Source of the DNA: Salinigranum marinum
Lineage (GTDB): Archaea; Halobacteriota; Halobacteria; Halobacteriales; Haloferacaceae
Length of the DNA stretch: 64,000 nt
NCBI RefSeq assembly: GCF_024228675.1
Contig: NZ_CP100461.1
Span: 496,001 to 560,000 of the forward strand
Direction: 5' to 3'
Below, one piece after another: positions 33,949 to 57,699 of this stretch. Both the position numbers and the translations under genes were made by a program. Numbering within the stretch: the first letter of the stretch is position 1; each line of letters opens with the position of its first letter. The notes below the pieces were generated by a model. That model searched no databases and had not been told where the DNA came from. It saw only the letters and a program-made list of their open reading frames with translations.

Positions 33949-34023
33949 GGGTTGGTGGTCTAGCCCGGTTATGACGGCTCCTTCACACGGAGCAGGCCGG
34001 CGGTTCGAATCCGCCCCAACCCA
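33949..34023 (+). tRNA. tRNA-Val (anticodon CAC)
   Basis: The acceptor strands GGGTTGG and CCAACCC pair fully, followed by discriminator A at 34023. The anticodon arm CTCC-TTCACAC-GGAG gives anticodon CAC (valine). The T arm is GGCGG-TTCGAAT-CCGCC. CCA is not encoded. The 3' 15 bases are part of an 18-base repeat found again at 45833, so this tRNA is the likely integration site of an island. Confidence 0.95.
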
Positions 34024-34026
34024 TCC
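34009..34026. repeat. Attachment site attL (tRNA 3' end copy)
   Basis: ATCCGCCCCAACCCATCC covers the end of the tRNA-Val gene plus three bases. The same 18 bases occur at 45833-45850. A chance match of this length within 12 kb is very unlikely. Confidence 0.8.
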
Positions 34027-34237
34027 TTCTTTCGACTTCAACCAAAGGAGTAGACGGGAGCCGATTCACCCCGTGTGTACCCCTTCAGAGAGGCATCAGT
34101 TGATCCGGTGAACGGGTGGCACGTCTCGATGGATGCGCCGTCCGGTGATTGTGCGAAAGGAGATTGTCGGGCGAGGTTCGAAAGTGTTTCCGTTGGACGA
34201 TTAGTGTCACCCATCATCAAAATGAGACACAGCAAGA

Positions 34238-34313
34238 TGTGAATCCATCGACAAGCCCAACCACAATCACCGCAACTACTACGAACACAAGAAAAATGTG
34301 GATCCATCGACAC
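34238..34313. repeat. Direct repeat of 17 bases, one mismatch
   Basis: ATGTGAATCCATCGACA at 34238-34254 recurs as ATGTGGATCCATCGACA at 34297-34313, 59 bases apart, in low-GC DNA just inside the island. It may be a leftover of a recombinase arm-binding site or of an insertion. Confidence 0.55.
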
Positions 34314-34554
34314 TACTCACGTCCACCTTTTGATAAGCACCAACAATGAAAAGTGTGACGACAAACAGAAAGACTGCTCCCGGTTTAAGAAGGTCTGTTA
34401 GTTCGTCCATCACTTCCCGATACTCGTCGCAGACTGAATACACTTCTGCCGAGACCGGAGTTTCTTTTTTGTAGATTTTCCCGATTACTCTGCGTAGACG
34501 CCTACCTGTCAGACAAAATTGGTCAATTTCTGGATGGAGTATATCGAGTATCAA
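34279..34554 (-). CDS. Small low-GC protein with C-terminal membrane span
   Basis: This 91-residue frame is not recognised. A charged N-terminal part (RRLRRVIGKIYKKE, then EYREVMDELTDLLK) precedes a hydrophobic span (GAVFLFVVTLFIVGAYQ). Base composition is much lower in GC than the flanking genome. It overlaps the next frame upstream by 32 bases, and a third similar small frame lies beyond, so the three may form one transcript. Confidence 0.45.
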   Translation of the reverse strand: MILDILHPEIDQFCLTGRRLRRVIGKIYKKETPVSAEVYSVCDEYREVMDELTDLLKPGAVFLFVVTLFIVGAYQKVDVSSVDGSTFFLCS

Positions 34555-34888
34555 GAGTTAACACGGATGGTACCCCGAAAAGTTGAGCGAGATGAAGTAC
34601 CCTGTCCTCGAAAAAATCTGTGACCAGAAATCGACCCACGTAAATGCGGTATTCGATACGAGTTAAAACGCTCGGAGAAATACTCAGAAAAATATGTGTA
34701 ACTGTATCGAAAACCCTCCTGACATTAATTGGGTTGATGGAATCGACGGTGATCAACACATCGTTTCGCTCCGTCTCGATTTTCGTTACTGGTGTCAAAT
34801 ATTCGAGGAATAGAGTGTTTCGTTCCAATTTGACTAATTGTATCCTCGAAGGTTTCAGAATCATAGTTGTTTTCACCAACATCGTCAA
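34523..34888 (-). CDS. Hypothetical low-GC protein
   Basis: This 121-residue frame is rich in Thr, Ile, Val and Arg (NDVLITVDSINPINVRRVFDTVTHIF), unlike the acidic core-genome proteins. There is no recognised motif or membrane span. It lies between two membrane-span frames on the same strand, separated from the upstream one by 54 bases. Confidence 0.4.
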   Translation of the reverse strand: MTMLVKTTMILKPSRIQLVKLERNTLFLEYLTPVTKIETERNDVLITVDSINPINVRRVFDTVTHIFLSISPSVLTRIEYRIYVGRFLVTDFFEDRVLHLAQLFGVPSVLTLDTRYTPSRN

Positions 34889-34942
34889 TCCTCTTGTATG
34901 GCTTTTCTACCCGACTTCCCCGACCACCAGAGTACGGGGCGG

Positions 34943-35188
34943 CTAATACTCGAAGGTTAAGTGTCGTTGTACCATTAAGTATCGAGTATTTGTAAAGTAG
35001 TATTTCACCTTGTAAGTTGAACCCAAGTTCGTATCATCCAGTTGCTCCAAAGTCTCACGCGTTTGCGCTGTCAACTGACCTGTGTACGAGAATCCCGATA
35101 CCACGAACGAAAGTGAGGCGATGATGATACTGATGAGGAGTAGACCAACCTCCAGCGAGAGGAAACTGACCATACTGGTGACAGTCAA
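34943..35188 (-). CDS. Small membrane-anchored protein, low GC
   Basis: This 81-residue frame has one clear membrane span near the N-terminus (GLLLISIIIASLSFVVSGFSY) followed by a polar part with a possible coiled coil (TAQTRETLEQLDD). It is not recognised. It would be the first gene of the three small minus-strand frames. Confidence 0.5.
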   Translation of the reverse strand: MTVTSMVSFLSLEVGLLLISIIIASLSFVVSGFSYTGQLTAQTRETLEQLDDTNLGSTYKVKYYFTNTRYLMVQRHLTFEY

Positions 35189-35232
35189 TGCACGGGTATG
35201 AAAAGATTTGATGTCCAGCGCTCAGTAGAACG

Positions 35233-35376
35233 ATGACCTCCTTCGACCCTGATGAACATCCGAAAGACGTGTGTCCTGAGCGTGGAGCCGATGTTGAGAC
35301 GACCCGAGAGTCGAAGCACTCGACTGGAACGGCGACCCACGTAAACTACAGAGACGCTTGCACCGAGTGTGAGTGA
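35233..35376 (+). CDS. Degenerate small zinc-ribbon protein, 47 residues
   Basis: Reading from ATG 35233 gives MTSFDPDEHPKDVCPERGAD and ends ACTECE. The layout matches small haloarchaeal zinc ribbons (CPxCG near the N-terminus and CxxC at the end), but the second Cys of the first pair is Arg (CPER instead of CPEC), a one-base change. It is probably a decaying gene. Another short frame with a CHRC knuckle (35393-35533) follows and may be a second fragment. Confidence 0.4.
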   Translation: MTSFDPDEHPKDVCPERGADVETTRESKHSTGTATHVNYRDACTECE

Positions 35377-35546
35377 AGTAAGTGGTGGTGGGATGACCGA
35401 TGAGTACGATTGTCACAGATGTCGTGAACCATCTCTCGGGCAACACACGGCGCTCGCACGAATCCTAACTACTTCCCTGACTGACGGGACATCCAATCGT
35501 GCAATCCAACACAGCGCCTTCTCGCTCGTCTGATGGACATCTTTCT

Positions 35547-35578
35547 CTTAACCAACAGACGTCCCTGTCTTAACCAAC
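35547..35578. repeat. Short direct repeat CTTAACCAAC, spaced 22 bases
   Basis: CTTAACCAAC occurs at 35547-35556 and again at 35569-35578. The start-to-start spacing of 22 bases is about two helical turns, as for sites bound on one face of DNA. It lies about 210 bases before the membrane pseudogene, with no clear TATA box nearby. Confidence 0.35.
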
Positions 35579-35786
35579 GCGCCTCAGAAAGGACCATACG
35601 AACGTGAGGCAGACGAACGTCACGAAACGGTGTCGACGGACGAGCGCACGAAGGGAGGGCACAGTTGATCACGTGGAACCTCATCACCAGGCGACATAAT
35701 CGGGTCGACGCAGTCGTAACGCGCAACGAGAATCGGGCAGTACAACTATACCCGGAAACGATGTACCGCTCTGTGGTGATACCCAG

Positions 35787-36629
35787 ATGGGTGCGTCGAT
35801 TTCTCGGTGGCAACTGGTCTCGACGGTCACGATCGTCGTCCTGTCGATCGGTTCGACACTCCTCGGTCTCTTTCGACCTGGCCACTACCCTCCGGAGCTG
35901 CTCCCTCAGTTCTACGTCCAGGACCTCGTCGTACTCGTCGTCGGTGTTCCGGCGCTGATCCTCGGCCTCTGGTACACGACACGAGGGTCCCTGCGGGGCC
36001 GTGTCGCCTTCCTCGGCGCGCTGGCGTACATGAGCTACATGTGAGCGTCCACCGGGCTGCAGGTCCCGTTCAACCGGTTCTTCCTCGGGTATGTCTTCCT
36101 GTTCAGCCTCTCGCTGTTCACGTTCGTCGCAGAGACGGTCGAGGTTGACGCGAACACGGTCCGTCGGGTTCTTGCTCCGCGTCTCTCCGAACGGGTCTAT
36201 GCCACCTTCCTGCTGCTGATCGCGGTCGGACTCGCCTTCGTCTGGCTCGCGGAACTCGTTCCAGCGACTCTCAGCGGGGTCCCGCCACTGCTCGTCGAGG
36301 AGATCGGTCCACAGGCACTGGTGTCGCACTTCGTCGACTTGGGTGTCGTTGTGCCGGCGCTGATCGTTGCCAGTGGGTTGCTCTGGCGCCGGCGCCCATG
36401 GGGGTACGTCTTCGCCGGCGTTGCGCTGGTGTTCGGCGCATTACTCGCCCCGACGATCACCGGGATAACGATCGTGTTGTTGGTCGGTGGATCGGTGACC
36501 GTTCCTCCCGTTGCGCTCGTCTTCACGGTCCTTCCAGCGGCTGTCGCGACGGTGCTTGCCGTCACGTATTTGCTCGCGATACCTGGTTCGGACTCACCGG
36601 CGACCGACGAGCGGACCCAGCCCACGTGA
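35787..36629 (+). pseudogene. Haloarchaeal multi-pass membrane protein interrupted by TGA
   Basis: The frame from ATG 35787 encodes three spans, reaches YMSYM and meets TGA at 36042-36044. It then continues in the same frame for 194 codons to 36627 with about six more hydrophobic spans (PFNRFFLGYVFLFSLSLF and onward). The two parts together give a 280-codon protein of about eight to nine spans, matching a type of haloarchaeal membrane protein seen without a name. A single base change (for example TGG to TGA) would explain it. It is probably inactive. Confidence 0.7.
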
Positions 36630-36713
36630 GTTCCTCACCCGGATGCGACCTGTTTGTAACGACATGGTAGCACGTAGCGAAACTGTTTAATACCTAACAG
36701 TTGTGCATATGAT

Positions 36714-37595
36714 ATGCAAGAACCAGGGCGCATATCACTCGGTAGGATGTCGGTCTCTCTCGGGAACCCGTGGATATTTTTCGGCGTAACCTACGCCGTC
36801 ACGTGGAGTTTCTTGCTACTGGCGATCGTTTTCGGAGTGAGCTTTCAGAGTGCCGAGGGCGTGGTGTTGCAGTTGCTGGCACTTCTCGGTCCTGGGGCTG
36901 CCGGTATCGGATTCATCTATCTCGTCTACGATGAGCGAGGGCGCGCGGACTTCTGGAATCGAATCAAACAACCCCGCCGAATCGGCGTACGATGGTTCCT
37001 GGTCATCCTGCTAACCCCGGTCGGGGTGACGATCGTGGCTGCCGTGGGTGCGTCACTGCTGGGCAGTTCGGGAACTGCCTGGGGTGAGGCCGTTCGGGAG
37101 CTGAGTCGTAATCCACTGGCGATCCTGCCGACGCTGTTCTTCGCGACGCTCCCGCCGATCCTCGAAGAGTTCGGATGGCGTGGGTACGCGTTGGACCGGC
37201 TTCAGATGGACCGCTCGGCGCTCGGCGCCAGTGTACTGTTAGGCGTCGTCTGGGCAGTCTGGCACCTCCCGTTGTTCTTCGTCGAAGGATCGTTTCAACG
37301 CGAGTTCGTCGGATTCGCGACGAGCGGCTTCTGGCTGTTCATGATCGGCATCGTCGCGCTGTCGGTTATTTTCACGTGGGTGTACAACCATACCTCGCGG
37401 AGTATCCTTGGCATCATCCTCCTGCACGGATGGGTGAACTTCGTGTCCAATACCGTCGAGGTCGCGGACGAATACTACTACCCGGCCTGGGTCCTGACTG
37501 CAGTCCTCATTACGGTAATCTGGGGGGCGAAGAGCTTGAGAAAAACCGGCGACGTGCCCCGTCCACCCCTGCCAACCGGTACGTCCCGTGGCTGA
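36714..37595 (+). CDS. CPBP-family intramembrane metalloprotease, copy 1
   Basis: This 293-residue membrane protein belongs to the CPBP (CAAX protease and bacteriocin-processing) family. All active-site blocks are intact: E151-E152 with R156 in ILEEFGWRGYAL, H184 in VWHLP, and H238 with N242 in LLHGWVNF. About eight spans are present. TTTAATA near 36686 is a probable TATA box. Members cleave inside membranes or serve in self-protection; the substrate is unknown. Two more CPBP genes lie in the same island. Confidence 0.85.
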   Translation: MQEPGRISLGRMSVSLGNPWIFFGVTYAVTWSFLLLAIVFGVSFQSAEGVVLQLLALLGPGAAGIGFIYLVYDERGRADFWNRIKQPRRIGVRWFLVILLTPVGVTIVAAVGASLLGSSGTAWGEAVRELSRNPLAILPTLFFATLPPILEEFGWRGYALDRLQMDRSALGASVLLGVVWAVWHLPLFFVEGSFQREFVGFATSGFWLFMIGIVALSVIFTWVYNHTSRSILGIILLHGWVNFVSNTVEVADEYYYPAWVLTAVLITVIWGAKSLRKTGDVPRPPLPTGTSRG

Positions 37596-37863
37596 ACGAC
37601 GATGTGTTCGCCTCGGAACGGTTTCCCATCCGGGTTGATGTTCGGGAAGACGCAGTGAACCACGGTGTCCCTCATTGATCTGCACCTGTGTCAGCACGGC
37701 TGCTACCTACCGGAGCGGTTCTCTCTGGACTCGACTAAGTCCAGTACATCTCGTTGGTCGAGTGGAATGGTCGGCGGGACTGAGACCCCGTGTCCTCGAC
37801 ATTCCCGCCAGTGTGGAATCAGACTACTGTTATTAGTTTATTGTCAGCTTATGTCTATACGCT

Positions 37864-38664
37864 ATGCCGATACACATCGAAACCGTCCTGCGGAAAGGTA
37901 TCAACCGCACTGTCGCCCGGAACGGTCTGCTGCTCGCAGCCGTCCTCTACGTCGTCTCGACAATCAACGCGATCGTCGGACTCGGCGTTCAGCAGTGGGT
38001 AGCGAACCGTGGCGTCTTCCCGATGGGCGTCCCGTTCTCGAGAGGGATGGACGCTGAGATCTCACGGGAGATGGGCGCTGCGCTGTTCGCCATCCCTCCA
38101 GCCGTAGGCGCCATCGTCTCCCTCCTGGCGGGCCTGGCCACGATTATCCTCACCATCGGCGCGCTCCGGACCTTCGTGAGCGACGAGACCGAGCGCCTGC
38201 CGAGCGAGCACTTCACTCAGAACATGGTGTGGCCAGGGCTGAACTTCCTCGTCGGCACCATCGTCTTCGGGGTGGTCGTTGCGCTCGGCTTCGTCTTCCT
38301 CGTCATCCCGGGGATCTTCCTGCTCGTCGCGCTCGCGTTCTGGACGGTGTACGTCGCCGTCGAGGACGAGAACTTCGTCGCGGCCATGCAGGATAGCTGG
38401 GGACTGACTCACGGGCACCGGCTGCGGCTGTTCCTCCTCGGGGTCGCCGTCGCGGTCGTCGCCATCGTCGTGAGTGCCGTCTTCGGCGTTGCAGGGATCG
38501 TCGGCGGCGTCGTCGCCGTCATCATTACCCAGATCGGGAGTGCACTGACGACGGTCTTCACGCTCGCGACGCTCGCCGCGGCGTACGAGCAGCTCGTCGC
38601 GCTCCCCTCCGAGGAGACGCCGGTCACGGCAGAGAGCGACAGCGAGACATCTACCCCCGCATAG
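37864..38664 (+). CDS. DUF7847-like multi-pass membrane protein
   Basis: This 266-residue protein has about six hydrophobic spans and resembles the membrane domain associated with glycerophosphodiester phosphodiesterases and haloarchaeal DUF7847 proteins. Visible features are IPGIFLLVALAFWTVYVAVEDENFVAAM followed by SWGLTHGHRLRLFLLG, a pattern of that group. It has no catalytic motif. The preceding 268 bases have TATTAGTTTATTG near 37832 as a possible promoter. Confidence 0.7.
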   Translation: MPIHIETVLRKGINRTVARNGLLLAAVLYVVSTINAIVGLGVQQWVANRGVFPMGVPFSRGMDAEISREMGAALFAIPPAVGAIVSLLAGLATIILTIGALRTFVSDETERLPSEHFTQNMVWPGLNFLVGTIVFGVVVALGFVFLVIPGIFLLVALAFWTVYVAVEDENFVAAMQDSWGLTHGHRLRLFLLGVAVAVVAIVVSAVFGVAGIVGGVVAVIITQIGSALTTVFTLATLAAAYEQLVALPSEETPVTAESDSETSTPA

Positions 38665-38957
38665 ATGGCGACGCGGCTCTTTGCTACTCGGGATTCCACC
38701 GGTGGGACTCCGTGGTCCGGCAATGGTCAGCGTTGGGTTCCGCATCTCGGGGACTGCGTGCAGGAGCGGCGGACCTCCGGCCCCACTCCGATCCGAAGCG
38801 GAGTTCACCTGGGCCGAAGCGATCGTTCACGAAAGGAGTTTGTTATTCAGCACCGTCGGTCCCGACCGACCGACCGAGTCCGTGCCAGACGTTCTGCTGA
38901 CGACGGAGCAGACATTATTCTGACGGGACCCGAGGGACCGGACAGGAGGATACCGGA

Positions 38958-39659
38958 GTGAGTGAAACGACGGGACCGGGCAGCGCGACGGAACCGACCA
39001 CCTGGCGGAGTGGTGTCTGGACCGCTATTCTGATTACGGGTGCTCTCTTGATGATTTATCACCGCTTCGTCCGTCCGTGGCATCTCGAGTGGGGTGCCAC
39101 CGACGAAGAGATCGCGCGCCGACTACCAGGGGACGACATTGTTCCGACCGCGAGCAGCGAGACGACCCGTGCAGTCACGATCGAAGCTCCCTGCGACGAG
39201 GTGTGGCCGTGGCTCGTCCAACTCGGGCAGGGCCGCGGCGGGTTCTACAGCTACAGTTGGCTGGAGAACCTGGCCGGGGCGGACATCCACAACGTCGATC
39301 GGATCGTCCCGGAACTACAACACCTGGAGGTGGGTGACTCGATCCGGATGGCCACGGAGGACTACTGGCTCCAGAGTCCGCTCACGACGATGACCGTCGA
39401 ACGCATCGATCCGGGCCGAACGCTCGTCTTCCAGGGATACGACGGTGGAACGTGGACGTTCCACCTCGATCCGATCGGCGCGGAGACGACCCGGTTCATC
39501 GTGCGCGGACGAACACCGGCGAACCAGTCGGTCGTCGACCGTGTCGTTCGGTATCTGATGTACGAGCTTCCGCATTTCATCATGGAACGCGGCATGATGC
39601 GCGGGATTAAAACGCGGGCTGAACGCCCCGGTCACGTCGGGGACTCCGTTTCAGAGTGA
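38958..39659 (+). CDS. Membrane-anchored SRPBCC-fold protein, copy 1
   Basis: This 233-residue protein (GTG start) has one N-terminal span ([15 protein letters not shown]) and then an SRPBCC/START-like ligand-binding fold. The signature region is [25 protein letters not shown] and IHNVDRI. The fold binds hydrophobic ligands in a cavity. A second copy at 45127 has the same layout. It is convergent with, and overlaps by 28 bases, the next gene. Confidence 0.75.
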
Positions 39660-40342
39660 GGGTTTCCTCGCTCTTCGAGGGTGTAACGCTGCCGTCGGAA
39701 GTGCACGGCGACGAGGAACGTCGAGACGGGGACGGCGACGACCCACAGACCCGCCAGTGGGAGAAATCCCGGGTCGACGAAGTACGTGAGAAAGACGGGG
39801 ATCGTGACGATGCCGTTGGCGACGAAGAACCGGCGGATCCACCGTCGCAGTCCACCACCAGCAAACACCGGAGCGACCGCCAGCGTCGCCAGCCCCAGAA
39901 ACAGGTACCTCAAGCCGTCGACGGCTTGGAGGAATATCCCGAAGGTGTCTGCGAGGAGCATCCTCTCGATCTCGCTCAACGTTCCGCGCTGGGCTTTCGG
40001 GAGGTACACGAACAGCTGCACGATGTACATGAGCGACACCTGTGACGCGTAGAGGACGGCGAAGGTCACCCCCGTGAAACTCCAGACTCGCTGGTCCCCG
40101 GACACCGTGTGGTGGATGCTACTCATCATGACCACGATGGTAACGGCGAGGATCAGCGACGATGCATCGACCAACCGAATGCCGAGCAGCCGCGGGATCG
40201 CGTCCAACAGCTCCAACAACGCCGCGACCGAACAGACGGTGGCGCTCACTGCTGCGAGTAGGGCTGACCAGAAGCCGAGCCGGTTGATCGGGTCTCGACT
40301 CCACGTGTGAAGCAGTCGGTCAAACGAACGCGGAGTTATCAT
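39632..40342 (-). CDS. Multi-pass membrane protein, unknown
   Basis: This 236-residue protein has about six spans and no recognised motif. I place the start at 40342 (MITPRSFDRLLHTW); the frame extends upstream through an unlikely AAIIIIIM stretch translated from promoter-like AT-rich DNA. Its 3' end overlaps the SRPBCC gene convergently. Confidence 0.6.
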   Translation of the reverse strand: MITPRSFDRLLHTWSRDPINRLGFWSALLAAVSATVCSVAALLELLDAIPRLLGIRLVDASSLILAVTIVVMMSSIHHTVSGDQRVWSFTGVTFAVLYASQVSLMYIVQLFVYLPKAQRGTLSEIERMLLADTFGIFLQAVDGLRYLFLGLATLAVAPVFAGGGLRRWIRRFFVANGIVTIPVFLTYFVDPGFLPLAGLWVVAVPVSTFLVAVHFRRQRYTLEERGNPHSETESPT

Positions 40343-40468
40343 TATAATGATTATTATTGCTGCACATAGCCCAATAAGCGTATCCCGAGACCTCTCGGAC
40401 GGTCGTGTGCTGCACAGGAACGCTGCGCTCACCGGCTGAACCGGTCGACGGCTCACTGTCTCCGACGG

Positions 40469-41260
40469 TCAGTTGTCAGGTTCGAAGTCGGGTGACGCCT
40501 CCGTGCACTGATCGACGACGAACTCGCGAACGACCCTGGTATACGCGTCCGGCCGTTCGAGGTTCACCGTGTGCCCAGCGTCACGGATCGCGACCACAGA
40601 GACGTCCGACGATTCGACGCTCCGTTCGACCGCTGCTGGTCTGTTGATGCGGTCGTTCTCGCCGTTCAGCAGGATTACCGGACCCGGATAGGCCGCGAGA
40701 CGCTTCTGAAAATCCCTATCGACGAGTGCCAGCCCAGCCTGGCCCCACGCGTCGAACGAGAGACCCGCGTTCAGAATCGAGTCGACAGTGCCGTCGGGGA
40801 GCGGGAGTGACCGCAGACGGGACCGAGTCGTCCGCTCGAACCAACTCGTGATGGGTGGGATGTGAGCACCGAGTCGAAACAACAGGCTACTGATCCTCGT
40901 TCGAAGTCCCAGCCACCCCCGGTAGCCGGCACTGCTCCCCGAGAGCACGAGTCCGGAGATGAGGTCCGAATTTCGAGCCGCGACTTCGATCGCCACGTAG
41001 CCACCCAGGGACTGCCCGACAAGTACGAGACAGTCCGCGTTCGCACGCTGCACGATCCTTTCGACCGTATCGATGGCCTCCTAGAAGTGAAACGGTTCAT
41101 CGATTCTCGTTCCGTGCCCAGGGAGGTCGAGAGCGACGGTCTGGTAGGTATCCGAGAGCGACTCGACCTGTGGGAGCCACATCTTCCGCGAAATCCCCGC
41201 GCCATGTATGAAGAGGATAACGGGCGTATCAGTCGGTCCACGGCTATCGACTGCTGTCAT
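40469..41260 (-). pseudogene. Alpha/beta hydrolase interrupted by an in-frame TAG
   Basis: From ATG 41260 the protein begins MTAVDSRG and shows the oxyanion-hole HGAG and LDLPGHGTR, then meets TAG at 41081-41083. The same frame continues EAIDTVERIVQRANADCLVL to the nucleophile elbow GQSLGG, an acid in NGENDR and the catalytic His in DAGHTV, ending at 40469. Everything except the one amber codon looks intact. It could be inactive, a sequencing error, or rarely readthrough. A TTG start at 41329 overlapping the HXXEE gene is an alternative. Confidence 0.75.
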
Positions 41261-41321
41261 CGGTCGCAGTTCGTTAGACGGGGACCAAACATGTTCCCCA
41301 GTCGAACTCACGCGGACCAGG

Positions 41322-41858
41322 TTACACAATCCATCGATCGATCCGTTTTGAAAGCCTGTTTGCCCCGACCACGAACGGAACGAACAGGACGAGTCCGAGG
41401 ATACCCGTCATCCTAACAGTCCCGATATCGACGAGGCCCGCGGAGAGGAGTCGCCAGTAGAGTAAAATGGACACTGGAATCACGACCGAGATGGCAGTGG
41501 CGAGCCCCGGCGTATAACCACGGAACACGATCGACTGTCCCACGTGGACGAACGAGTGGAGAAAGTAGCCACCGAGTATCGTGGTGTATATCAAGATACC
41601 GGGCCCGTTCGGGTCGAACGTGCCAGCGGCGGTCGCCCCGACGACGACACAGCCGACGAACCCGACGGCAACGGTAAACCGACGTCGTGTTGAGGTGAGC
41701 ACCCCGACGAGCCGACGCTGCAGTGGCGTCAGGTCGTCACTCTTCCGTAGGCCCCATCGACGAGACCACCTGTCGATCGTGGCAATCTCTTCGAGATCGT
41801 GGACCAGCCAGCTCACGGGGAGCAGCCACAGCACCAGTACAGTCTCCGAGATCGTCAT
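41322..41858 (-). CDS. HXXEE domain membrane protein
   Basis: This protein starts MTISETVLVLWLLPVSWLVHDLEE and has the family motif H20-x-x-E23-E24 inside the first span, plus a second His/Gln motif (HSFVHVGQSIVFRGYTPG). About six spans. HXXEE proteins are predicted membrane enzymes of unknown activity. It sits between a CPBP protease and the interrupted hydrolase, all on the minus strand with short gaps. Confidence 0.8.
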   Translation of the reverse strand: MTISETVLVLWLLPVSWLVHDLEEIATIDRWSRRWGLRKSDDLTPLQRRLVGVLTSTRRRFTVAVGFVGCVVVGATAAGTFDPNGPGILIYTTILGGYFLHSFVHVGQSIVFRGYTPGLATAISVVIPVSILLYWRLLSAGLVDIGTVRMTGILGLVLFVPFVVGANRLSKRIDRWIV

Positions 41859-41900
41859 CAGTTGGTTGTTGGGTATTCGCCTCTCACTACATAGACTCAC

Positions 41901-42764
41901 TCAGCCGAATACCTCTGTCGTCTTGCTCCGTCGCCACAGGGCGACACCGACAGTCACGAGCACCAGCAAGAAGAACGTGTACCAGCGAACGACCTGAGAT
42001 GGTGCGAGCACTTCGCCGGGGAGGTTGATCATCAGATGGAATAGGACGGCGGCGAGGACGCTCCGGGAGGTGTTGTCGTAGATCCACGCGTATAGCGTCT
42101 CGAGGACGACGAACGTCGCGAAGAAGCGCCAGACGACCGGCTGGTATGAGGCCTGACTGTAGTATCCCTCCATCAGGAAGAACGGGATGTGCCAGCTCGC
42201 CCAGACGGCGCCGCTGATGAGGCCAGCGGCGACCGGACTCCAGATGCTCATTAGTCGGTCTAAAAAGTAACCGGTGGAGCCCGTCTCCTCGACGACTCCC
42301 GCACCAACTGTGAAGCCGAAGAACGCGAACAGACTGAGGGGATTCGTGAGCCGCTGGAACGTCGAGACCGGATCGAACGGTTGTGTCGTGGCCCCTATCA
42401 GTACGGCAAGCCCACCAGCGACGACCGTGAGGCCGGGATACAGTAGGAAGATGACGACGTACCAGCGCGGTCTGATGCGACGAGGATTACGGATCCGGTC
42501 CCACAGTTCGCGGAGGCCGGCCATCCCATCGGACCGACGTATCATCGTGATTCCCCCGAGCAACGGGCTCAACGACCCGAGATAGAAGAAGAGGACGTTC
42601 GGGAACGTCCAGACGCTCTCGCCCGAGAGGATGACGAGCCCCCAGAAGAGCCACGCCCAACCCAGATAGATGACGACGTAGCCCCCCAGGTTGAGACTCT
42701 TGCGAAGGCGGGCGACGAGCCCGTCGCCAGTCGTCATCCCCGCACCACCTTCCGTGAGACTCAT
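41901..42764 (-). CDS. CPBP-family intramembrane protease-like protein, copy 2, atypical motif
   Basis: This 287-residue protein has the CPBP layout: a cytoplasmic basic loop (WDRIRNPRRIRPRWYV), then VVEETGSTGYFLDRL, WHIP and LFHLMINL. The usual EExxxR has lost its Arg (EETGSTG), so proteolytic activity is doubtful. The ATG overlaps the stop of the DUF5518 gene upstream by four bases, and the HXXEE gene follows within about 40 bases, so the genes form an operon. Confidence 0.78.
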   Translation of the reverse strand: MSLTEGGAGMTTGDGLVARLRKSLNLGGYVVIYLGWAWLFWGLVILSGESVWTFPNVLFFYLGSLSPLLGGITMIRRSDGMAGLRELWDRIRNPRRIRPRWYVVIFLLYPGLTVVAGGLAVLIGATTQPFDPVSTFQRLTNPLSLFAFFGFTVGAGVVEETGSTGYFLDRLMSIWSPVAAGLISGAVWASWHIPFFLMEGYYSQASYQPVVWRFFATFVVLETLYAWIYDNTSRSVLAAVLFHLMINLPGEVLAPSQVVRWYTFFLLVLVTVGVALWRRSKTTEVFG

Positions 42765-43159
42765 CCGCCTTTCGGGGACGCGGCTCCACTGCGCCCCGAC
42801 TGGGTCTCCCGGGCCAGATATGCGCCCAGATACCCACCGACGGCGCTCAGCCCGATGATCCAGGCGAACAGCAGCGGAAACATGACGAAGAGGATAATCG
42901 CCAGCTCCACGCCACCAGGAAGTCCGAACACCGAGGCGCGTCCGAGGTACAGCACGAACCCGGAGACCAGTATCAGGACGATGGGGAGAGTCGCGAGTCC
43001 ACCTGAGATGGCGCCGACCCTCGCACCGCGTTTCGGGGGCTCCCGCTGGAGGTATCCGGCTGTTCCGCCACCGAACAGTGGCGAAAAGCCCGTGAACGAG
43101 AGGCCGATCGTTACGACTGCCCCGATTGCCGCGTTGCGCAGTTCAGTTTGATCTACCAT
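42761..43159 (-). CDS. DUF5518-like small membrane protein
   Basis: This 132-residue protein has about four spans and the GFSPLFGGGTAGYLQREPPKRGARVGAISG segment typical of haloarchaeal DUF5518 proteins, whose function is unknown. It is the first gene of the DUF5518-CPBP-HXXEE set, coupled by an ATGA overlap. Confidence 0.8.
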   Translation of the reverse strand: MVDQTELRNAAIGAVVTIGLSFTGFSPLFGGGTAGYLQREPPKRGARVGAISGGLATLPIVLILVSGFVLYLGRASVFGLPGGVELAIILFVMFPLLFAWIIGLSAVGGYLGAYLARETQSGRSGAASPKGG

Positions 43160-43242
43160 AGAGAATGGTTCGAATGCTGTCTGGTTAGCTACCAGGGGCC
43201 GTTCTCACGGAGTGGGGGACTTCCTGTGAAGTGATATACTGG

Positions 43243-44055
43243 TCATTCCCGTCTGTCCGGCGGCTCGCGGTAGTTCCCCTGTCCCGTCTCGAATTCGCCC
43301 TCAGTCACCACCCACCCGTCATGCGAGCCGACCACCTCGACGGATTGACGATCGGTGTACTCGTTGAAATTCCAGCCGAACACCCACCAGCTGTTCGTCC
43401 CCCGGAGTTCGACCGAAACGTACACCGCTGTGTTGGGGTCGGAATCGTACGAGACGAAGGCACGGCCGTCGTACACGTAACATGTCTCCTCTTCTCCCCG
43501 AGCCCTGAAACAGGCTGTCTCGGTGCGGTTCTCGTGGGGGCGCAGGAGTGGTTCGCTCGTGGCCGGTGATCGGGTTTCGATGGTGACCTCGCTCTCGACC
43601 CTGGCGTCGACCTCGACGTCGTCGTGCTCGACGCGGAGGTGACTCTCGTTCGTTGGGTCGTACTCGTCGGGTGAAACGGTCTCCCAGCGAACGAGGCGGT
43701 CGTCTCTCACGACACTGTGGTGGTACGTCGGCTCCGTCGGAATCTCGTTCGCTTGAACGCGGAGCATCGGTCCAAAATCGGTAGCGACGACGTCGTACGT
43801 CCACCCGTCTGGCGTGAACGGGTGTCGCACGTTGCCAGTGTCGAGTACTGAGTTGCCACCCTGGTCCGGGAGCGGCACGAGGACAGTAACGTTCGTGATC
43901 GTCGCGGAGGGTGAGATTCGGACCTCGTATGTGTATTCGCTCCCGTAGCTGTCGCGATAGAGGGACTGAGAGTAGAGGAACAGCCCACCGACGACTGCGG
44001 CGACGACCACCAGAAACGCGACGAGGACGATGAAGAGTAAACGGCGCACGTTCAT
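43243..44055 (-). CDS. Membrane-anchored extracellular protein, unknown
   Basis: This protein begins MNVRRLLFIVLVAFLVVVAAVVGGLFLYSQ (start chosen at 44055; the frame opens 12 codons earlier). The rest, about 240 residues, is outside and beta-rich, with four Cys-poor blocks and a C-x-x-C-like pair (CFRARGEEETCYVYDG). The layout YEVRISPSATITNVTVLVPLP is like other haloarchaeal surface proteins that I cannot name. Confidence 0.65.
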   Translation of the reverse strand: MNVRRLLFIVLVAFLVVVAAVVGGLFLYSQSLYRDSYGSEYTYEVRISPSATITNVTVLVPLPDQGGNSVLDTGNVRHPFTPDGWTYDVVATDFGPMLRVQANEIPTEPTYHHSVVRDDRLVRWETVSPDEYDPTNESHLRVEHDDVEVDARVESEVTIETRSPATSEPLLRPHENRTETACFRARGEEETCYVYDGRAFVSYDSDPNTAVYVSVELRGTNSWWVFGWNFNEYTDRQSVEVVGSHDGWVVTEGEFETGQGNYREPPDRRE

Positions 44056-44119
44056 CGATTCACCCCGCTCACCCGAGACCGAACGAACCATGTTGGTGAG
44101 GAGGATTCGGAGAACATTG

Positions 44120-45013
44120 TTAATCCTCCAGTGAAATTCGCGTTGGATCAGTCGTCGGACGACGCTCCACCCGCCGAGCGTACAGGCTCGTCCCCGCGAT
44201 CAGGAGGACGAGACCGACCACACCCCACGTGAGAAGCGCGTGGGACATGTACATCGCCGTCAACAACTCCCAGTTCAGCGTGTCTCCGACGAGGACGACG
44301 TCGAGGTCGAGCGGAACTCGGCCGGTCGTCGAGTTGTCGGCTCCGTGCATCACCATCGCGAGGAGGGCACTTCCCCCCGAGCCGTTGAACACCCACGCCA
44401 AGAGGATCGAGAACGCGACGATGCCGGTGAAGTAGGAGACGACGAGAACGACAGGCCAATCTGCTCGCATCCCGCCGGGGAGAACGAACTGTGGGAGGTG
44501 CCAGAGGCCCCAGAAGACACCGATAATGATTGCAGCTCGAAGTGCGCCGTACTGCGCTTGTAGTTCCGGCTGGGCGAAGCCACGCCAGCCCAGCTCCTCT
44601 TGGCCTCCGCCGATCAGGGTTCCCAGGACGATGCCCAGCACGATACTGAACGGGTCGAACGTGAACGAAGCCCAGTCGATGGGATCACCGGCGAGCCACC
44701 CAACGATACCCGACGCGTATGCGATACCGAACGGGACTGCGATCGCGAACACGTACCACTTCGGATGGACCCGCCAGCGGAGGATGCTTACGAGCCATTC
44801 ACGGACGCTCTCGCCGCTGCTGTAGAGGACGACGCCAGCCGCGACTGCCGGGGCGAGCGGGCCGAGGAAGCCGCCGATGAACCACCACGTCCAAGAGGGC
44901 TCCATCTCGAGCAGAACGATCACGCCTTCGAGACTCCAGGAGATCGCGTACGCCAAGAGAAAGAACGCGGCGATGCGGTGTCGTCTGATCCAGTTCGTCA
45001 CGACGCTGCTCAT
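44120..45013 (-). CDS. CPBP-family intramembrane metalloprotease, copy 3
   Basis: This protein of about 297 residues keeps all active-site blocks: GGGQEELGWRGFAQPEL (EExxxR), FWGLWHLPQF, and MVMHGADN. About eight spans. The start at 45013 (MSSVVTNWIRRHR) is preferred over a frame opening at 45076. It is divergent from the second SRPBCC gene, 113 bases away. Confidence 0.84.
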   Translation of the reverse strand: MSSVVTNWIRRHRIAAFFLLAYAISWSLEGVIVLLEMEPSWTWWFIGGFLGPLAPAVAAGVVLYSSGESVREWLVSILRWRVHPKWYVFAIAVPFGIAYASGIVGWLAGDPIDWASFTFDPFSIVLGIVLGTLIGGGQEELGWRGFAQPELQAQYGALRAAIIIGVFWGLWHLPQFVLPGGMRADWPVVLVVSYFTGIVAFSILLAWVFNGSGGSALLAMVMHGADNSTTGRVPLDLDVVLVGDTLNWELLTAMYMSHALLTWGVVGLVLLIAGTSLYARRVERRPTTDPTRISLED

Positions 45014-45126
45014 ATTTTTACTTCGGCTCCAATCGACAGTAACTCGCGAAGACATTTCTTGGGAAGTAAGAAACACCTGACAGGATTTAACGATTCAATA
45101 CCACATCTTGACAGAGAAGACAGATT

Positions 45127-45990
45127 ATGACCGATATCTGTGACACGGGACGGTCGCCATCGAACGAGCCTGCCCCGAGAGCGGAAGCAACTCGGCGACG
45201 ACGCATCCGATGGGCGGTGGGGGCTGCCCTCTTCGTGGCCGTATACTGGACGCTACTCAGGGAGTGGATGCTCACCTGGGGAGCGACCTCGTCGGAGGTG
45301 GACATGCAGTTTCCAGGCGACGGTCTGCTTTCAGACCCGGACGCACAATCGACCATGGCTGTCGATATCGACGCATCACCCAGCGATGTGTGGCCGTGGC
45401 TTCGTCAGTTGGGACAGGACCGTGGCGGGTTCTACAGCTACGAGTGGGCAGAGAATCTCGTTGGGCTCGACATCCACAACGCGGATCGGATCGTCGCGGA
45501 GTGGCAGGATCTTTCGGTCGAGGATGCAGTCCGACTCGGCCGTGCTGACCGGTTCCCCGACGCGGTCCTCAAAGTGGTCGCGATAGATCCGGAGCGGTCA
45601 CTGGTCCTACAGACGCCCGACGAACCGACGTGGTGGCTTTGGTCGTTCGTGCTCAACCCGGTCGACGAGACGACTACGCGACTGCTCGTGCGCTCGCGCA
45701 TCCGTTTGCCCGAAAACACGGTGATTCGTCTTGCTGCACTGTCGGTACTTGATCCAGTCTCGTTCGTGATGACACGCAGGATGCTCCGTGGCATTCAGTC
45801 ACGGGCCGAACGGCTCGCGGGCGACCGGTCCGATCCGCCCCAACCCATCCAATCTCCGTCGCTTTCTGGAGTAGACCGTTCACCCGCAGCGTTGCGATCA
45901 CGCATCAACCCACCTCAATTTCATCCGGCGGCCGGTTGCGCCTCACCACCTTATCAGGATAATAGAGAAGCAGACCCTTCATCGGTGTAA
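45127..45990 (+). CDS. Membrane-anchored SRPBCC-fold protein, copy 2, with chimeric C-terminus
   Basis: This 287-residue protein matches the copy at 38958 through the span (RWAVGAALFVAVYW), DVWPWLRQLGQDRGGFYSYEWAENL and IHNADRI, and MLRGIQSRAERL near the normal end. It then reads through the attR repeat (45833-45850) and continues about 46 residues of Ser/Pro/Arg-rich low-complexity sequence. Copy 1 ends soon after the same point, so the tail of copy 2 was probably created when the island integrated. Confidence 0.75.
   Translation: MTDICDTGRSPSNEPAPRAEATRRRRIRWAVGAALFVAVYWTLLREWMLTWGATSSEVDMQFPGDGLLSDPDAQSTMAVDIDASPSDVWPWLRQLGQDRGGFYSYEWAENLVGLDIHNADRIVAEWQDLSVEDAVRLGRADRFPDAVLKVVAIDPERSLVLQTPDEPTWWLWSFVLNPVDETTTRLLVRSRIRLPENTVIRLAALSVLDPVSFVMTRRMLRGIQSRAERLAGDRSDPPQPIQSPSLSGVDRSPAALRSRINPPQFHPAAGCASPPYQDNREADPSSV
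45833..45850. repeat. Attachment site attR
   Basis: Exact copy of the 18 bases at 34009-34026 from the tRNA-Val 3' end. Beyond both copies GGAGTAGAC recurs at a similar offset (34047 and 45868), showing that the similarity reaches imperfectly past the core. Confidence 0.75.
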
Positions 45991-46198
45991 ACCCTGCTGA
46001 TGGTGCGAGTCTCACCACCGATTCCAGCTGTTATCTCTGATCGGGGGGAGCCGAGGAAGCCATACATACAGACACGTGCTATCGAGTAATCGGTAGAACG
46101 ACTGTGCGAGATACGAGATTCATAATTAGCAACTGGATACGAGGAGTTCCCGTCGGATCTCATTGATTGTTTGAAATATATCGCACCAGTGGATCGGT

Positions 46199-47551
46199 CT
46201 AGTACGTTGATTTGAATACACGCCACACAATCCGTGGGCGTAGCAGCGACTCAGGAGGTTGTTCCAACATGAACACCCGAACTAACGCTTCTCTGAGTCT
46301 CCCGTCTGAATGGGCTGCCCGCACCAATCGGTCCAGATACCAGTTGATGAAATCAGTCCCCCGGGGCTTAGACCCGGTGGTTTCAGGGAACTCGAAGTCT
46401 CCCCCGACTGCTATCGACCACGGGCTATCGACGATTTCTGCCGCCCGTTCGAAAAACCGGAGTCCGACACCCTCCCGCCCAGCAGACGCCAGCGTGTGAT
46501 GGAGTTGGAGCGCTTCGAGAGCAGCCACCGACATTCCCTGCCCGTAGATCGGATTGAAGCTACAGAGCGCGTCCCCGATGACCACCAAGTTGGCGGGGAA
46601 CCTGTCGAGGTCTTCATACCTGAGACGCCGATTGGACGGAAATGGATAGTGAGCGACTTCGTCTGACACCCAGGAGTGCTTGTTGAGGAGCTGTGCAACC
46701 ACGGAGATGGGAAGTTCTTCCGCAAACGTGATCAACTCGTCCGCCTCCGTTGGTGGATGGTTCCCGTGGACTCCGAGCAGGGTCGTCTGCCAGTAGCCAT
46801 CTTCGACTGGAAACATCCCAACGCCCCGGGTTCGAGCCGGTTCAGGTGGCACAAAGAAATTCCGCCGATCGTCTCTAGGACGTTCGACCATCACGGTGCT
46901 GTAGGCCAAGTCGATCTGCACCTCCTCGACAGCCGGGGCCTCGAAGCCGTGGTCGTCCAGCCACGATGGGGTCTTGCTCGCCCGCCCGGAGGCATCCACT
47001 ATTAGGTCGGCGGGGATGGTAGATTCCTCTGAACTGTCATCTCGCACAGTTACGCCCTCGACGCGGGAAGCTGTCTCGTCGAGTGCATAAGTAATGAACT
47101 GGGTGCGGGATCGGAGATCAACGTCGTCGCATGCAGCAACTCGTCGCCGGAGGACCTCTTCGAAGAGTGGACGGGTCGCGTTGTACATGACCATACGGTT
47201 CGGCCCGGCGGCGAGAAAATCGCCCTTCTCGTAGTGATAAAAGTCGGACATGAGATCGATGATAAGCCCTCCAGACGAAATGAGGTCCTCTCCATATCCT
47301 GGGAACAAGTCCTCAAACGTGTCTCGCCCAGCAGTTTCCAAGACGTGGACATGCTGGCCCTGGGGTACCCCACGACGGGTGGATGTATCGTCGGGGATCG
47401 AATCCCGTTCGATGATCGTGACGGTATCGAACCCATCGGTGAGGACGCGGGCTGCCAGCAATCCAGCCACACTCCCTCCGACCACAACGGCATGGGCCCC
47501 GAGGTCCGAGGTCTGTTCGGGGTCGTACCGCGGAACAGTTGCGAGTGTCAT
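46199..47551 (-). CDS. FAD-dependent monooxygenase-like oxidoreductase
   Basis: This 450-residue flavoprotein has an N-terminal dinucleotide-binding motif (VVVGGSVAGLLAARVL), a DASGR motif near the middle and a second FAD contact VVIGDALCSFNPIYGQGMSVAALEA. It belongs to the class A flavin monooxygenase/halogenase/geranylgeranyl-reductase superfamily. The preference cannot be told, and the Trp motif of halogenases is not seen. It lies 17 bases downstream of a second flavoenzyme in the same direction. Confidence 0.8.
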   Translation of the reverse strand: MTLATVPRYDPEQTSDLGAHAVVVGGSVAGLLAARVLTDGFDTVTIIERDSIPDDTSTRRGVPQGQHVHVLETAGRDTFEDLFPGYGEDLISSGGLIIDLMSDFYHYEKGDFLAAGPNRMVMYNATRPLFEEVLRRRVAACDDVDLRSRTQFITYALDETASRVEGVTVRDDSSEESTIPADLIVDASGRASKTPSWLDDHGFEAPAVEEVQIDLAYSTVMVERPRDDRRNFFVPPEPARTRGVGMFPVEDGYWQTTLLGVHGNHPPTEADELITFAEELPISVVAQLLNKHSWVSDEVAHYPFPSNRRLRYEDLDRFPANLVVIGDALCSFNPIYGQGMSVAALEALQLHHTLASAGREGVGLRFFERAAEIVDSPWSIAVGGDFEFPETTGSKPRGTDFINWYLDRLVRAAHSDGRLREALVRVFMLEQPPESLLRPRIVWRVFKSTY

Positions 47552-47568
47552 GATATGTCCTCGGATTC

Positions 47569-48954
47569 TTATGTAATGTTCTGGTTCGTGCGGAACAGGT
47601 TGTCAGGGTCCCACTCCCGTTTGAGGGCGTGGAGGCGGTCGTACCGCTCCCCGTACGCCTCGGAAACTCGGTCGGTTTCGTCGTCACTGAGGTAGTTCAC
47701 GTAGACGCCGTCGGCCGCGTACGGTTCCAATGCCTCGTGGAACTCACGCGCCCAGCTAATGTGTTCCTCGTCCCGCTCGGGGTCAGTCCACTTCGGGGCG
47801 ACGGTGAACGCGAACGCCCGGTCGCGGTGTGGGAAGGCAGTCGCGTCGTGGCCGCGCTCGGCGATCGCGCCCCCCATCCACTCGAAGAACACCGTCGAGT
47901 ACGGCGACGGGATCGACGCCGTGTACTCGATCACCGTCTCGACGAGTCCTTCGGAGATCTCGTCGTAGAAGTTCGACTTCCAGTAGTTCCGGTGGCCCTC
48001 GCAGTAGAGATCGTCGGCCTGTTGCTGGTGTTCGGTGTACGGAATCCGTTGTGTCATGTCGTCAATCGGATCGCCGAACTCCCGGAGCGGCTGGAACGCC
48101 TCCCTTCCCGCGGAGACGTCACCCGCGTACAGCCCCCGGAACGCCAGCAGCGTCACTCCGTGTAACTCCTCGGGCAATCCGTACTCGGGACTGCCCTCCA
48201 GTATCGCCGCGTAACAGCCGACCTCGTTCGGTGCCTCGCGCATGAACTCGTCGTAGAACTGGAGCGTCTCTGGAATCTGGTCCGGAGGATATATGAGCCG
48301 GACGGTGAGGGTCTCGGGGCCGAGTTCGTGGAGTTCGAACTCGAACGACGTGACGACGCCGAAGTTGCCGGCGCCCCCGCGAAGCCCCCAGAACAGTTCC
48401 GGGTGCTCCTTCGCGCTCGCGGTGACGAGTTCGCCCTCGGCCGTGACGACATCCATCGATCGGAGGTTGTCGTGAGCGAGGCCATACTTCCGGGCGAGGT
48501 ACCCGAGGCCACCGCCGAGGGTGAGCCCGGCAACGCCGGTTTCGGACATGATGCCACCCGTCGTGGCGAGGCCGAACGCCTGTGTCTCGTGGTCCAGATC
48601 CCCGATCGTCGCTCCCGCCTGGACCCGCGCCGTCCGTGTGTCGGGATCGACGCGGACCGCATCCATCGGTGACAGGTCAACCACGAGACCGTCGTCACAC
48701 AGGGCCGTCCCTGCGACGTTGTGCCCGCCTCCCTTGATTGCGAGCCGCAGGTCAAGATCACGGGCGAAATCCACAGCGGCGACGACGTCAGCGGTACCGG
48801 TACACCGAGCGATAAGGGCCGGTTCCTTGTCGATCATCGCGTTCCAGACGGATCGGGCTTCGTCGTAGCCGTCGTTGCCGAGTTGGAGTACCTGTCCGCG
48901 TAGCTGCTTGGCGAACGAGTCGACGGTCGTTTGTTCCAAATTGGTCGTTGCCAT
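47569..48954 (-). CDS. FAD-linked oxidase (berberine-bridge-enzyme-like)
   Basis: This protein of about 461 residues has the PCMH-type FAD-binding domain. KGGGHNVAG carries the His normally bound to FAD, and the later LATTGGIMSETGVAGLTLGGGLGYLARKYG block lacks the second Cys of two-link enzymes. It ends with the BBE domain (YVNYL, RYDRLHALKREWDPDNLF). Members oxidise sugars, alkaloids or polyketides. The start at 48954 follows from the family and from the divergent regulator. Substrate unknown. Confidence 0.87.
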   Translation of the reverse strand: MATTNLEQTTVDSFAKQLRGQVLQLGNDGYDEARSVWNAMIDKEPALIARCTGTADVVAAVDFARDLDLRLAIKGGGHNVAGTALCDDGLVVDLSPMDAVRVDPDTRTARVQAGATIGDLDHETQAFGLATTGGIMSETGVAGLTLGGGLGYLARKYGLAHDNLRSMDVVTAEGELVTASAKEHPELFWGLRGGAGNFGVVTSFEFELHELGPETLTVRLIYPPDQIPETLQFYDEFMREAPNEVGCYAAILEGSPEYGLPEELHGVTLLAFRGLYAGDVSAGREAFQPLREFGDPIDDMTQRIPYTEHQQQADDLYCEGHRNYWKSNFYDEISEGLVETVIEYTASIPSPYSTVFFEWMGGAIAERGHDATAFPHRDRAFAFTVAPKWTDPERDEEHISWAREFHEALEPYAADGVYVNYLSDDETDRVSEAYGERYDRLHALKREWDPDNLFRTNQNIT

Positions 48955-49091
48955 CGTGTCATGACCTCCGTCGGGTCCACATTCAGTATGAGCGACCAGC
49001 CATTTGCACTTACCCAGTGAGGTGTTTCCCACCCCGTCGGCGTTTTCCCACGGGCCGAAACTTGATACCGATCCCCATGGTATGTTATCTC

Positions 49092-49928
49092 ATGACACTA
49101 CAGTCCAGTGCAGTTCACGAGGATGCGCTGGAAGACATCGCGTATTTTGCTCGGTCGAAAAACCGAGTGCGACTTCTCGTGATTCTGGCCTCTGGGTCGT
49201 ACACGCGTCGGGAATTGGGAGACATGGCGGGGGTCGCCAAAACGACGATCGGGCGGATTCTCAACGAGTTCTCCGAGCGTGGGTGGACCGAACGGACCGC
49301 CGATGGGAACTACACGGCAACCCCGATCGGCCAACAGGTCGTGATGGAATTTATGCCACTCGTCGAGTCGATGTCGGTGATCAAGAAGCTGGGTGAAACA
49401 GTGGCCTGGTTTCAGGCGACAGAGAATCCGATCGGGATGGGCCAGCTCACGGATGCAACCGTGGTGCGACCCGACCCGGCTGATCCGATGGCGCCCGTGA
49501 ATGCCTACGTGGAAGACCTTCGTACCGCATCTGAATTTTACTGCCTCGTCGGTGTGGCGCCGCCGGAATCCTTCGAGAAGGCCATGCGGGACGGGGTCAT
49601 TGAGCGCGGGATGCGCGCGGAACACGTGATCACCGAGAGCGAATACACGTACCTTCTTGCGTACCCGAATCGGCTCACCCGGTGGCGGGAGTATGTCGAG
49701 GCTGGTGCGAACGTCTACTGTTATAGCGATGCTGTGCCCTGTAACGTCATGATCTTCGATGAGACGGTGTATATCGCAAACACCCAGTCAGAGTATGGCG
49801 AGCCATACACGGTGATCGAGAGTCACAACGATGCCGTCCTGTCATGGGGGCACGAAATCGTCGAGACGTATCGAAACGACGCCGAACGGCTCGATGTCGA
49901 GTCATTCAGCACAGAGCCGGGAAACTGA
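49092..49928 (+). CDS. Winged-helix transcriptional regulator with FilR1-like domain
   Basis: This 278-residue archaeal regulator has an N-terminal winged helix (about 20-80: YTRRELGDMAGVAKTTIGRILNEF) and a C-terminal domain like that of methanogen FilR1/DUF1724 regulators (EYTYLLAYPNRLTRWREYVEAGANVYCY). It is divergent from the two flavoenzyme genes with a 137-base shared region, so it probably controls them. Confidence 0.78.
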   Translation: MTLQSSAVHEDALEDIAYFARSKNRVRLLVILASGSYTRRELGDMAGVAKTTIGRILNEFSERGWTERTADGNYTATPIGQQVVMEFMPLVESMSVIKKLGETVAWFQATENPIGMGQLTDATVVRPDPADPMAPVNAYVEDLRTASEFYCLVGVAPPESFEKAMRDGVIERGMRAEHVITESEYTYLLAYPNRLTRWREYVEAGANVYCYSDAVPCNVMIFDETVYIANTQSEYGEPYTVIESHNDAVLSWGHEIVETYRNDAERLDVESFSTEPGN

Positions 49929-49985
49929 GCCGACAACGTCCACTGCCGAATACAGCCTCTGGGCCGTGTTTAGACGCTAGTATTA

Positions 49986-50528
49986 TTGCCTGAATATCAG
50001 GAATTCTATGAAGTGAAGCGAGCAGAGTTCGATGTGCCTCCGAGACTTGCTCGCTTCACCGACCGATGTGTGTATTCATACCAAAAAGTTGTCAAGAGTG
50101 GCGGAGATGAGAATGTAAACAAAAGGAAAGGTGTCTACGCTGATTGGGTGATTATCGCCATTCATAGACTCCGTGAGTATCTCGACCTTCCGTAGCGCCG
50201 ACTTCTCGATATCCTTCGTGAAATGCCTGATATCGTGGAAAAACTCGGGTTATCGGTCGAGGAGTTATCGGACTTCACCACGGTTTGTGCTCGGAAGCAG
50301 GCGCTGAAGATGCGGGTCTGGCGAGTGCTGTTTCGGCTCTCGGTGAATCCATTAGACCAGTGATCGAGCATCGAGAATTCTACTCGCTCGATGCCGCTCA
50401 CAATGTTCGGATTAATGATGAAACGTACCATCGACGGTCTGTCGTCGAATCGGTATTTTTCGTGCTTCGCAAGCGATTCGGCTCGACGATTAAAGCCAGA
50501 ACATGGTTCGATCAGTTCCGAGAGATCG
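49986..50528 (+). pseudogene. Decayed IS5-type (ISH) transposase gene
   Basis: The frame opens with a TTG in place of the usual ATG and encodes PEYQEFYEVKRAEFDVPP, RFTDRCVYSYQKVV and YADWVIIAIHRLREYLDLP. It then hits TAG (50193-50195), where haloarchaeal relatives have Tyr. It continues RRLLDILREMPDIVEKLGL and ARKQALKMRVWRVLFRL, then a deletion of roughly 120 codons. In another frame it resumes RPVIEHREFYSLDAAH and VVESVFFVLRKRFG. The 3' end is cut by the TnpB element. This is clearly inactive. Confidence 0.85.
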
Positions 50529-50540
50529 GCTTGACATCCT

Positions 50541-50560
50541 CCTCCGCGTTCACGCGGAGG
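50541..50560. repeat. Right-end hairpin of the TnpB element
   Basis: CCTCCGCG-TTCA-CGCGGAGG is a perfect 8-bp stem with a 4-base loop just beyond the tnpB stop. In this family the 3' untranslated region and end hairpin also form the guide (omega/re) RNA scaffold, so a non-coding RNA read on the minus strand may end here. Confidence 0.7.
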
Positions 50561-50593
50561 AATCCCACGGCACCGCGCCGCTGGATTGGGATA

Positions 50594-51916: not shown

Positions 51917-52033
51917 TGTGAACGCCTGTATAAGCACTTATACTCGTGTTTCTTGTAAAGTTTCGGTTTGAGGAGAGTGGAATATCCTGCTTTGCCATCG
52001 ACGGTGGGTTGTGGAGGGGTTGTCGGATTCATC

Positions 52034-52051
52034 CCGCGCCTAAAGGCGCGG
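52034..52051. repeat. Left-end hairpin of the TnpB element
   Basis: CCGCGCC-TAAA-GGCGCGG is a perfect 7-bp stem with a 4-base loop, upstream of tnpB. Its form parallels the right-end hairpin and marks the element's left border. Confidence 0.6.
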
Positions 52052-52075
52052 ATATTCTCCTCGAATCTCTATAAA

Positions 52076-53909: not shown

Positions 53910-54007
53910 CGCTCGGGTGGTCTCGTTGACCGCTCGACGGTTGAGCATTGTCTTTGGTGATAGTTCGTTCCGTCTCCCTTAACTCTCTTTCGACAACGTC
54001 CCACGTA

Positions 54008-54064: not shown

Positions 54065-54073
54065 ACGGGGCGT

Positions 54074-55036: not shown

Positions 55037-55061
55037 TCGCGTTCGCGACCGGTTCGGACAC

Positions 55062-57693: not shown

Positions 57694-57699
57694 CAGCCG

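Follow-up and report, generated by a model that had tools for sequence, protein, structure and literature searches.

A composite, decaying island putatively integrated at the tRNA-Val(CAC) gene of Salinigranum marinum

The DNA downstream of the tRNA-Val(CAC) gene of Salinigranum marinum is best explained as a composite, decaying island, in which one element (34027-45832) would have been inserted at the tRNA gene and the bases 45833-45850 would represent the displaced tRNA end; we give this reading about an even chance. The locus was analyzed within a stretch of 64,000 nucleotides (the window), which is part of the 4.0 Mb contig C1 of the 4.9 Mb genome (four contigs). tRNA genes are the usual targets of archaeal tyrosine-recombinase integration, and in the proposed course of events the 3′ end of tRNA-Val(CAC) would be a hotspot at which a recombinase recognizing the tRNA end joined foreign DNA. 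The segment 34027-45832, carrying CPBP, HXXEE, DUF5518, SRPBCC and membrane-linked genes, would have been inserted there by an integrase that was supplied by another element or has since been lost, leaving 45833-45850 as the displaced tRNA end of this segment. The stretch to its right, from 45851 to about 52.8 kb, would be another addition, made up of foreign DNA and insertion sequences. An intact, self-moving element does not fit; the island is an ordinary, decayed kind of tRNA-associated genomic island, a kind that is already known. What counts against a single element is the lack of an adjoining integrase, the low GC content past 45850, the lack of an empty site among the three congeners compared and the situation in Salinigranum salinum, where the right half is likewise found at this tRNA, but its SRPBCC-like gene is intact and a second core is missing.

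The tRNA-Val gene, its repeated end and the left edge

The putative integration target is an intact tRNA-Val gene with the anticodon CAC (33949-34023, forward strand; ARAGORN, Rfam RF00005), the only non-coding RNA detected in the window with Rfam. A sequence search of the window located the 18-bp core ATCCGCCCCAACCCATCC at the tRNA end (34009-34026, forward strand) and, in the same orientation, at 45833-45850. This recurrence had been noticed in the preliminary description and holds, as even with three mismatches allowed the window contains these two copies only. Shuffled windows yielded on average 0.05 matches at up to three mismatches, and none of 100 contained two or more. The repeat is real and not a product of chance. 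No third core above background was detected where the low-GC region ends on the right. When the first 15 bases of the 18-mer were searched in the whole genome, one further exact copy was found on contig C4 and one copy with a single mismatch, which is tRNA-Val(GAC).

The C4 copy is an intergenic 21-bp tRNA-Val end (GAATCCGCCCCAACCCATCCT) at about 110659-110680 (locus L005, about 18660-18680). C4 is a contig of 145 kb which also encodes Orc1/Cdc6 and an integrase. About 1.3 kb from the core copy there are queC/queE-like genes whose closest S. salinum counterparts lie beside the tRNA-Val island of that species, and a cluster of CTAG tetramers with short spacing (L005, 18376-18520) adjoins the copy and may be an origin or a binding region. 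That the plasmid-like C4 integrated directly was considered and rejected: its core copy is inversely oriented relative to the shared que genes, its integrase is of another type and located about 10 kb away, and it has no DNA in common with the island, the sole similarity being a distant TnpB-like stretch to the right of 45850.

The left edge was compared with three congeners, S. salinum YJ-50-S2 (G001; locus on NZ_VTOJ01000002), G002 and G003. The synteny with S. salinum, extending over ~20 kb (glycine-cleavage genes, 84%), breaks off at 34026, the last base of the 18-mer. G002 and G003 have the tRNA side in common with the window, and their similarity to it is lost no more than about a dozen bases from the end of the tRNA, the left side of tRNA-Val being the sole part common to all three congeners and the window. 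By these alignments, the left edge is shown to be an exact synteny breakpoint at the tRNA end. Since the DNA 3′ of tRNA-Val differs in all four species, except for a block in common with S. salinum, the locus is a variable site. An empty site, in which the tRNA is followed directly by the sequence after 45850, had been envisaged in the preliminary description; it was not found in S. salinum, G002 or G003, whose downstream regions all differ from one another. The 12 kb stretch is not conserved core DNA of the relatives either, as it is absent at tRNA-Val in G002 and G003.

Other features were observed next to tRNA-Val genes. In S. salinum, tRNA-Val(CAC) is directly followed by a fragment of a replication protein gene (L041, 1798-2220; phrog_10542), a scar left at this site by a different mobile element. 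In several genomes, tRNA-Val is followed by tandemly repeated units (about 110-145 bp) that each terminate in a copy of the tRNA-Val T-arm (L047, 18035-18513; L024; L195/L196 near S. salinum tRNA-Val(TAC)).

Gene content, composition and mosaic structure

The island begins with an AT-rich stretch without a recognizable gene (34027-35700). On the forward strand it is followed by a membrane-protein gene (35700-36626) interrupted by an in-frame TGA (36042-36044), with tblastn similarity to G023 continuing on both sides of the stop, by the first of three genes for CPBP/Rce1-like intramembrane proteases (36714-37595; PF02517), by a membrane-protein gene with no assigned function (37864-38664) and by a first SRPBCC-like gene (38958-39659), whose match to PF10604 is weak and below the cut-off (E=0.026) and which resembles the gene starting at 45127. 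The reverse strand encodes a predicted membrane protein (39632-40456), an alpha/beta hydrolase broken into two frames (40469-41329), the two ORFs of which match the two ends of PF12697, an HXXEE-motif protein (41322-41900; PF13787), the second CPBP/Rce1-like protease (41901-42764; PF02517), a DUF5518 membrane protein (42761-43159; PF17647), a hypothetical protein (43243-44091) and the third CPBP/Rce1-like protease (44120-45076; PF02517), which is 92% identical in S. salinum.

In agreement with the preliminary description, no integrase is visible: nothing in the window matched the integrases of the same genome at E≤1e-3, and none was detected by Pfam among the genes called. Genes for capsid, packaging or replication functions were found neither by Pfam among the called genes nor by PHROGs in the frames of the left end, and the island gave no PADLOC match to a defence function. 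DNA similarity to plasmids was confined to single genes, that to phages to short unrelated matches. With two broken genes (35700-36626 and 40469-41329) and no integrase, the island is, as far as its gene content tells, now decaying, and the segment probably cannot move by itself. The earlier view of a remnant with foreign cargo and no integrase is supported.

The GC content is 0.61 in the island and 0.48 in its first 1.7 kb (34027-35700), compared to 0.68 in the left flank, and both GC and GC3 of the island are low relative to that flank. To the right, low GC values (0.55-0.60) persist from 45851 to about 52805 before the content returns to 0.66. Hence, the preliminary statement that the inside differs from its flanks applies to the left side but not to the right. 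The second low-GC segment (45851-52805) harbors genes for an FAD-binding monooxygenase (46199-47551, reverse strand; PF01494) and an FAD-linked oxidoreductase with a BBE domain (47569-49032, reverse strand; PF01565, PF08031; 86% DNA identity in G085), a gene for an HTH regulator of the HVO_A0261/FilR1 type (48948-49928, forward strand; PF25213, PF08350), whose frame, as called, extends into the 5′ end of the BBE gene, and insertion-sequence DNA including a TnpB-type insertion sequence (50531-52074, reverse strand) that is 99% identical at C1:30901-32444 and C3:297412-298954. The chromosomal backbone common to the window and G002 resumes at 52833; in G002, about 220 kb of the contig separate it from tRNA-Val, so the chromosome has been rearranged here as well. 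The remainder of the window (52806-64000) is 84% identical over 11 kb in G002 and contains a gene for an Fe-ADH-like dehydrogenase; an IclR-like regulator, a sugar ABC transporter and a large beta-galactosidase-like ORF were named from translations.

The two halves of the island have separate locations in S. salinum. The left half (36272-41979) is 79-90% identical to DNA on a contig other than that of the right half, where its start lies downstream of both tRNA-Phe (by about 0.2 kb) and tRNA-Val(TAC) (by about 1 kb); the right half is found at tRNA-Val(CAC). Judged by these matches, the island has a mosaic structure. Of the single bounded island of 11.8 kb described earlier, the junctions at both copies stand, but not the right-hand limit, as foreign DNA continues past 45850. 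The distribution of the halves over two tRNA loci, together with the shuffling of CPBP clusters among haloarchaea, would also suit homologous or illegitimate recombination between tRNA-linked clusters, by which the second core was copied along without any site-specific integration. We regard this as improbable, since it leaves unexplained the base-exact coincidence of a breakpoint with a tRNA core bearing the motif described below.

The right copy, its junction and the +21 motif

The right copy of the core truncates a second SRPBCC-like gene (45127-45832, forward strand), which lost its natural 3′ end at the core and whose frame continues to 45990. The window matches S. salinum from 41684 to 45833 with ~90% DNA identity, again downstream of tRNA-Val(CAC), and this match stops exactly at 45833, the base where the right core begins. 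The S. salinum gene is intact, has ~40 bases more to its stop and is not followed by a second core. SRPBCC homologues elsewhere have no more than about 18 residues left behind their last conserved block, whereas in the window more than 50 residues follow the last conserved stretch, the frame passing through the tRNA copy. As the homology ends at 45833 and the frame overruns the short ends of its homologues, the junction was made at this base. Its left half consists of SRPBCC sequence, its right half of the tRNA core and the +21 motif. On these comparisons, 45833 is a genuine recombinase-type junction that cut off the SRPBCC-like gene.

The motif is named after its position 21 nucleotides behind the tRNA end. 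It is present after the left core (AAGGAGTAGAC, 34045-34055, forward strand; profile match P about 5e-5) and after the right core (GAGTAGAC, 45869-45876, forward strand). A shorter similarity following both copies, GGAGTAGAC, had already been recorded in the preliminary description; it is indeed present and alone not significant, as 108 of 500 shuffles reach it. However, it is part of the motif AAG[GT]AG and occupies the position at which this motif is fixed order-wide. At +21 the left copy reads AAGGAG (34045-34050) and the right copy GAGTAG (45869-45874), and with respect to AAG[GT]A the left copy (AAGGA) is a match and the right copy (GAGTA) a near match. Among 52 tRNA-Val sites, ten have AAG[GT]A exactly 21 nt after CCA; it occurs once at +20 and nowhere else. 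Half of the sites of integrase-bearing elements (8/16) possess it at +21 versus 2/36 of the others. When the order was searched for AAG[GT]AG with gaps of 6-36 permitted, the gap was 21 in 30 of the 33 matches. At two loci (L025, L186) the motif lies within an exact 9-nt reverse complement of the anticodon arm of the respective tRNA.

The motif backs both copies as putative attachment sites, its meaning being inferred. Due to the breakpoints at 34026 and 45833 and the +21 motif after each, both core copies look like attachment sites, and the presumed tRNA 3′-end site of the tyrosine-recombinase type agrees with the location of the left edge and the right copy exactly at breakpoints. A short collinear similarity to S. 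salinum after the core was obtained with narrow-band alignments only (P 0.015-0.035); unrestricted alignment after the right core gave no significant homology (P about 0.15-0.27). If real, the collinear similarity would weaken the breakpoint argument. It is one of two points in favor of the 18-base match being a coincidence in the variable end of the SRPBCC gene, the other being that the 18-mer was also met in a very large viral collection, in phage contigs that are unrelated; these matches (three contigs with neither tRNA nor integrase) were rejected as chance. Such a coincidence is nevertheless hardly credible in view of only 0.05 matches expected in the window even with three mismatches and of a core placed exactly at the homology breakpoint and accompanied by the +21 motif.

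A somewhat less likely reading, which also fits, is that a second element starts with the copy at 45833 and that this copy does not terminate the first one. The CPBP/SRPBCC cluster would then already have been present beside the tRNA, as its right half is in S. salinum, and a tRNA-Val-type element would have recombined into a weak site of the SRPBCC gene (CGGTCCGA) similar to the T-loop (CGGTTCGA). Its right end and integrase would have been lost later, perhaps via the insertion sequences at 50-52 kb. This course of events is consistent with the intact SRPBCC gene in the same block at the same tRNA of S. salinum, with the two unlike halves of the junction and with low GC and insertion sequences as far as 52.8 kb. 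The right flank also fits the profile of element left ends (P 0.0016) better than that of native trailers (0.019), a small difference in a weak test. However, off-target integration would be needed though a perfect tRNA site was available about 12 kb away, and neither a right junction nor an integrase remnant was found.

Related elements and significance

A family-wide search for genomes with two tRNA-Val-end copies, in which AATCC was required in the query, revealed such pairs about 5-37 kb apart. In the first eight comparison loci, the non-tRNA copy lies next to a tyrosine integrase, the integrases belonging to one family. The same holds for four more loci, three with a partner on the tRNA side and one (G189) with only the non-tRNA copy in the stretch examined. 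Thus, an integrase adjoins this copy in all 12 comparison genomes (G179, G194, G171, G065, G138, G150, G190, G195, G201, G146, G181 and G189) and is absent in the window. The 12 elements were chosen for carrying AATCC or the +21 motif. A further point against the main reading is that the core in the window starts with ATCC and lacks the AATCC of the other copies, a comparison that is biased in that AATCC was required by the search. The island resembles these elements in the tRNA end used, in a similar core length and in the +21 motif, which many of them possess. It differs by an SRPBCC-like gene where their integrase adjoins the non-tRNA copy. The tyrosine recombinases of the S. marinum genome number about a dozen and include an integrase of the tRNA-Val type (C1:2877411; 37-44% identity).

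With the tRNA islands of the Islander database (PMC4383910), the locus shares an intact tRNA at one end, a displaced 3′ fragment at the presumed other end and foreign cargo; contrary to them, it lacks an integrase gene, its foreign DNA extends beyond the fragment and the fragment truncates a gene. Archaeal tyrosine recombinases of the SSV, pNOB8 and SNJ2 types mediate site-specific integration of mobile elements according to PMC8371274, which also discusses that a crippled element may be excised when another element provides a related integrase. Unlike in these types, neither a whole nor a split integrase was found in the window.

The locus illustrates that, even where an integrase is missing, a real tRNA-site junction can be told from a coincidence by a base-exact homology breakpoint combined with a positional motif, and that a direct repeat need not delimit both ends of one element. 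CPBP-protease-rich gene clusters appear, from their positions in the genomes compared, to move between tRNA loci, and insertions recur at the 3′ end of tRNA-Val across this haloarchaeal family. It is conceivable, though in our estimate rather unlikely, that haloarchaeal tRNA-Val attachment sites are longer than the repeated tRNA end and that AAG[GT]AG is a candidate arm site of the recombinase. If this were true, pieces devoid of an integrase, such as this island, could be recognized and moved by the integrases of other elements.
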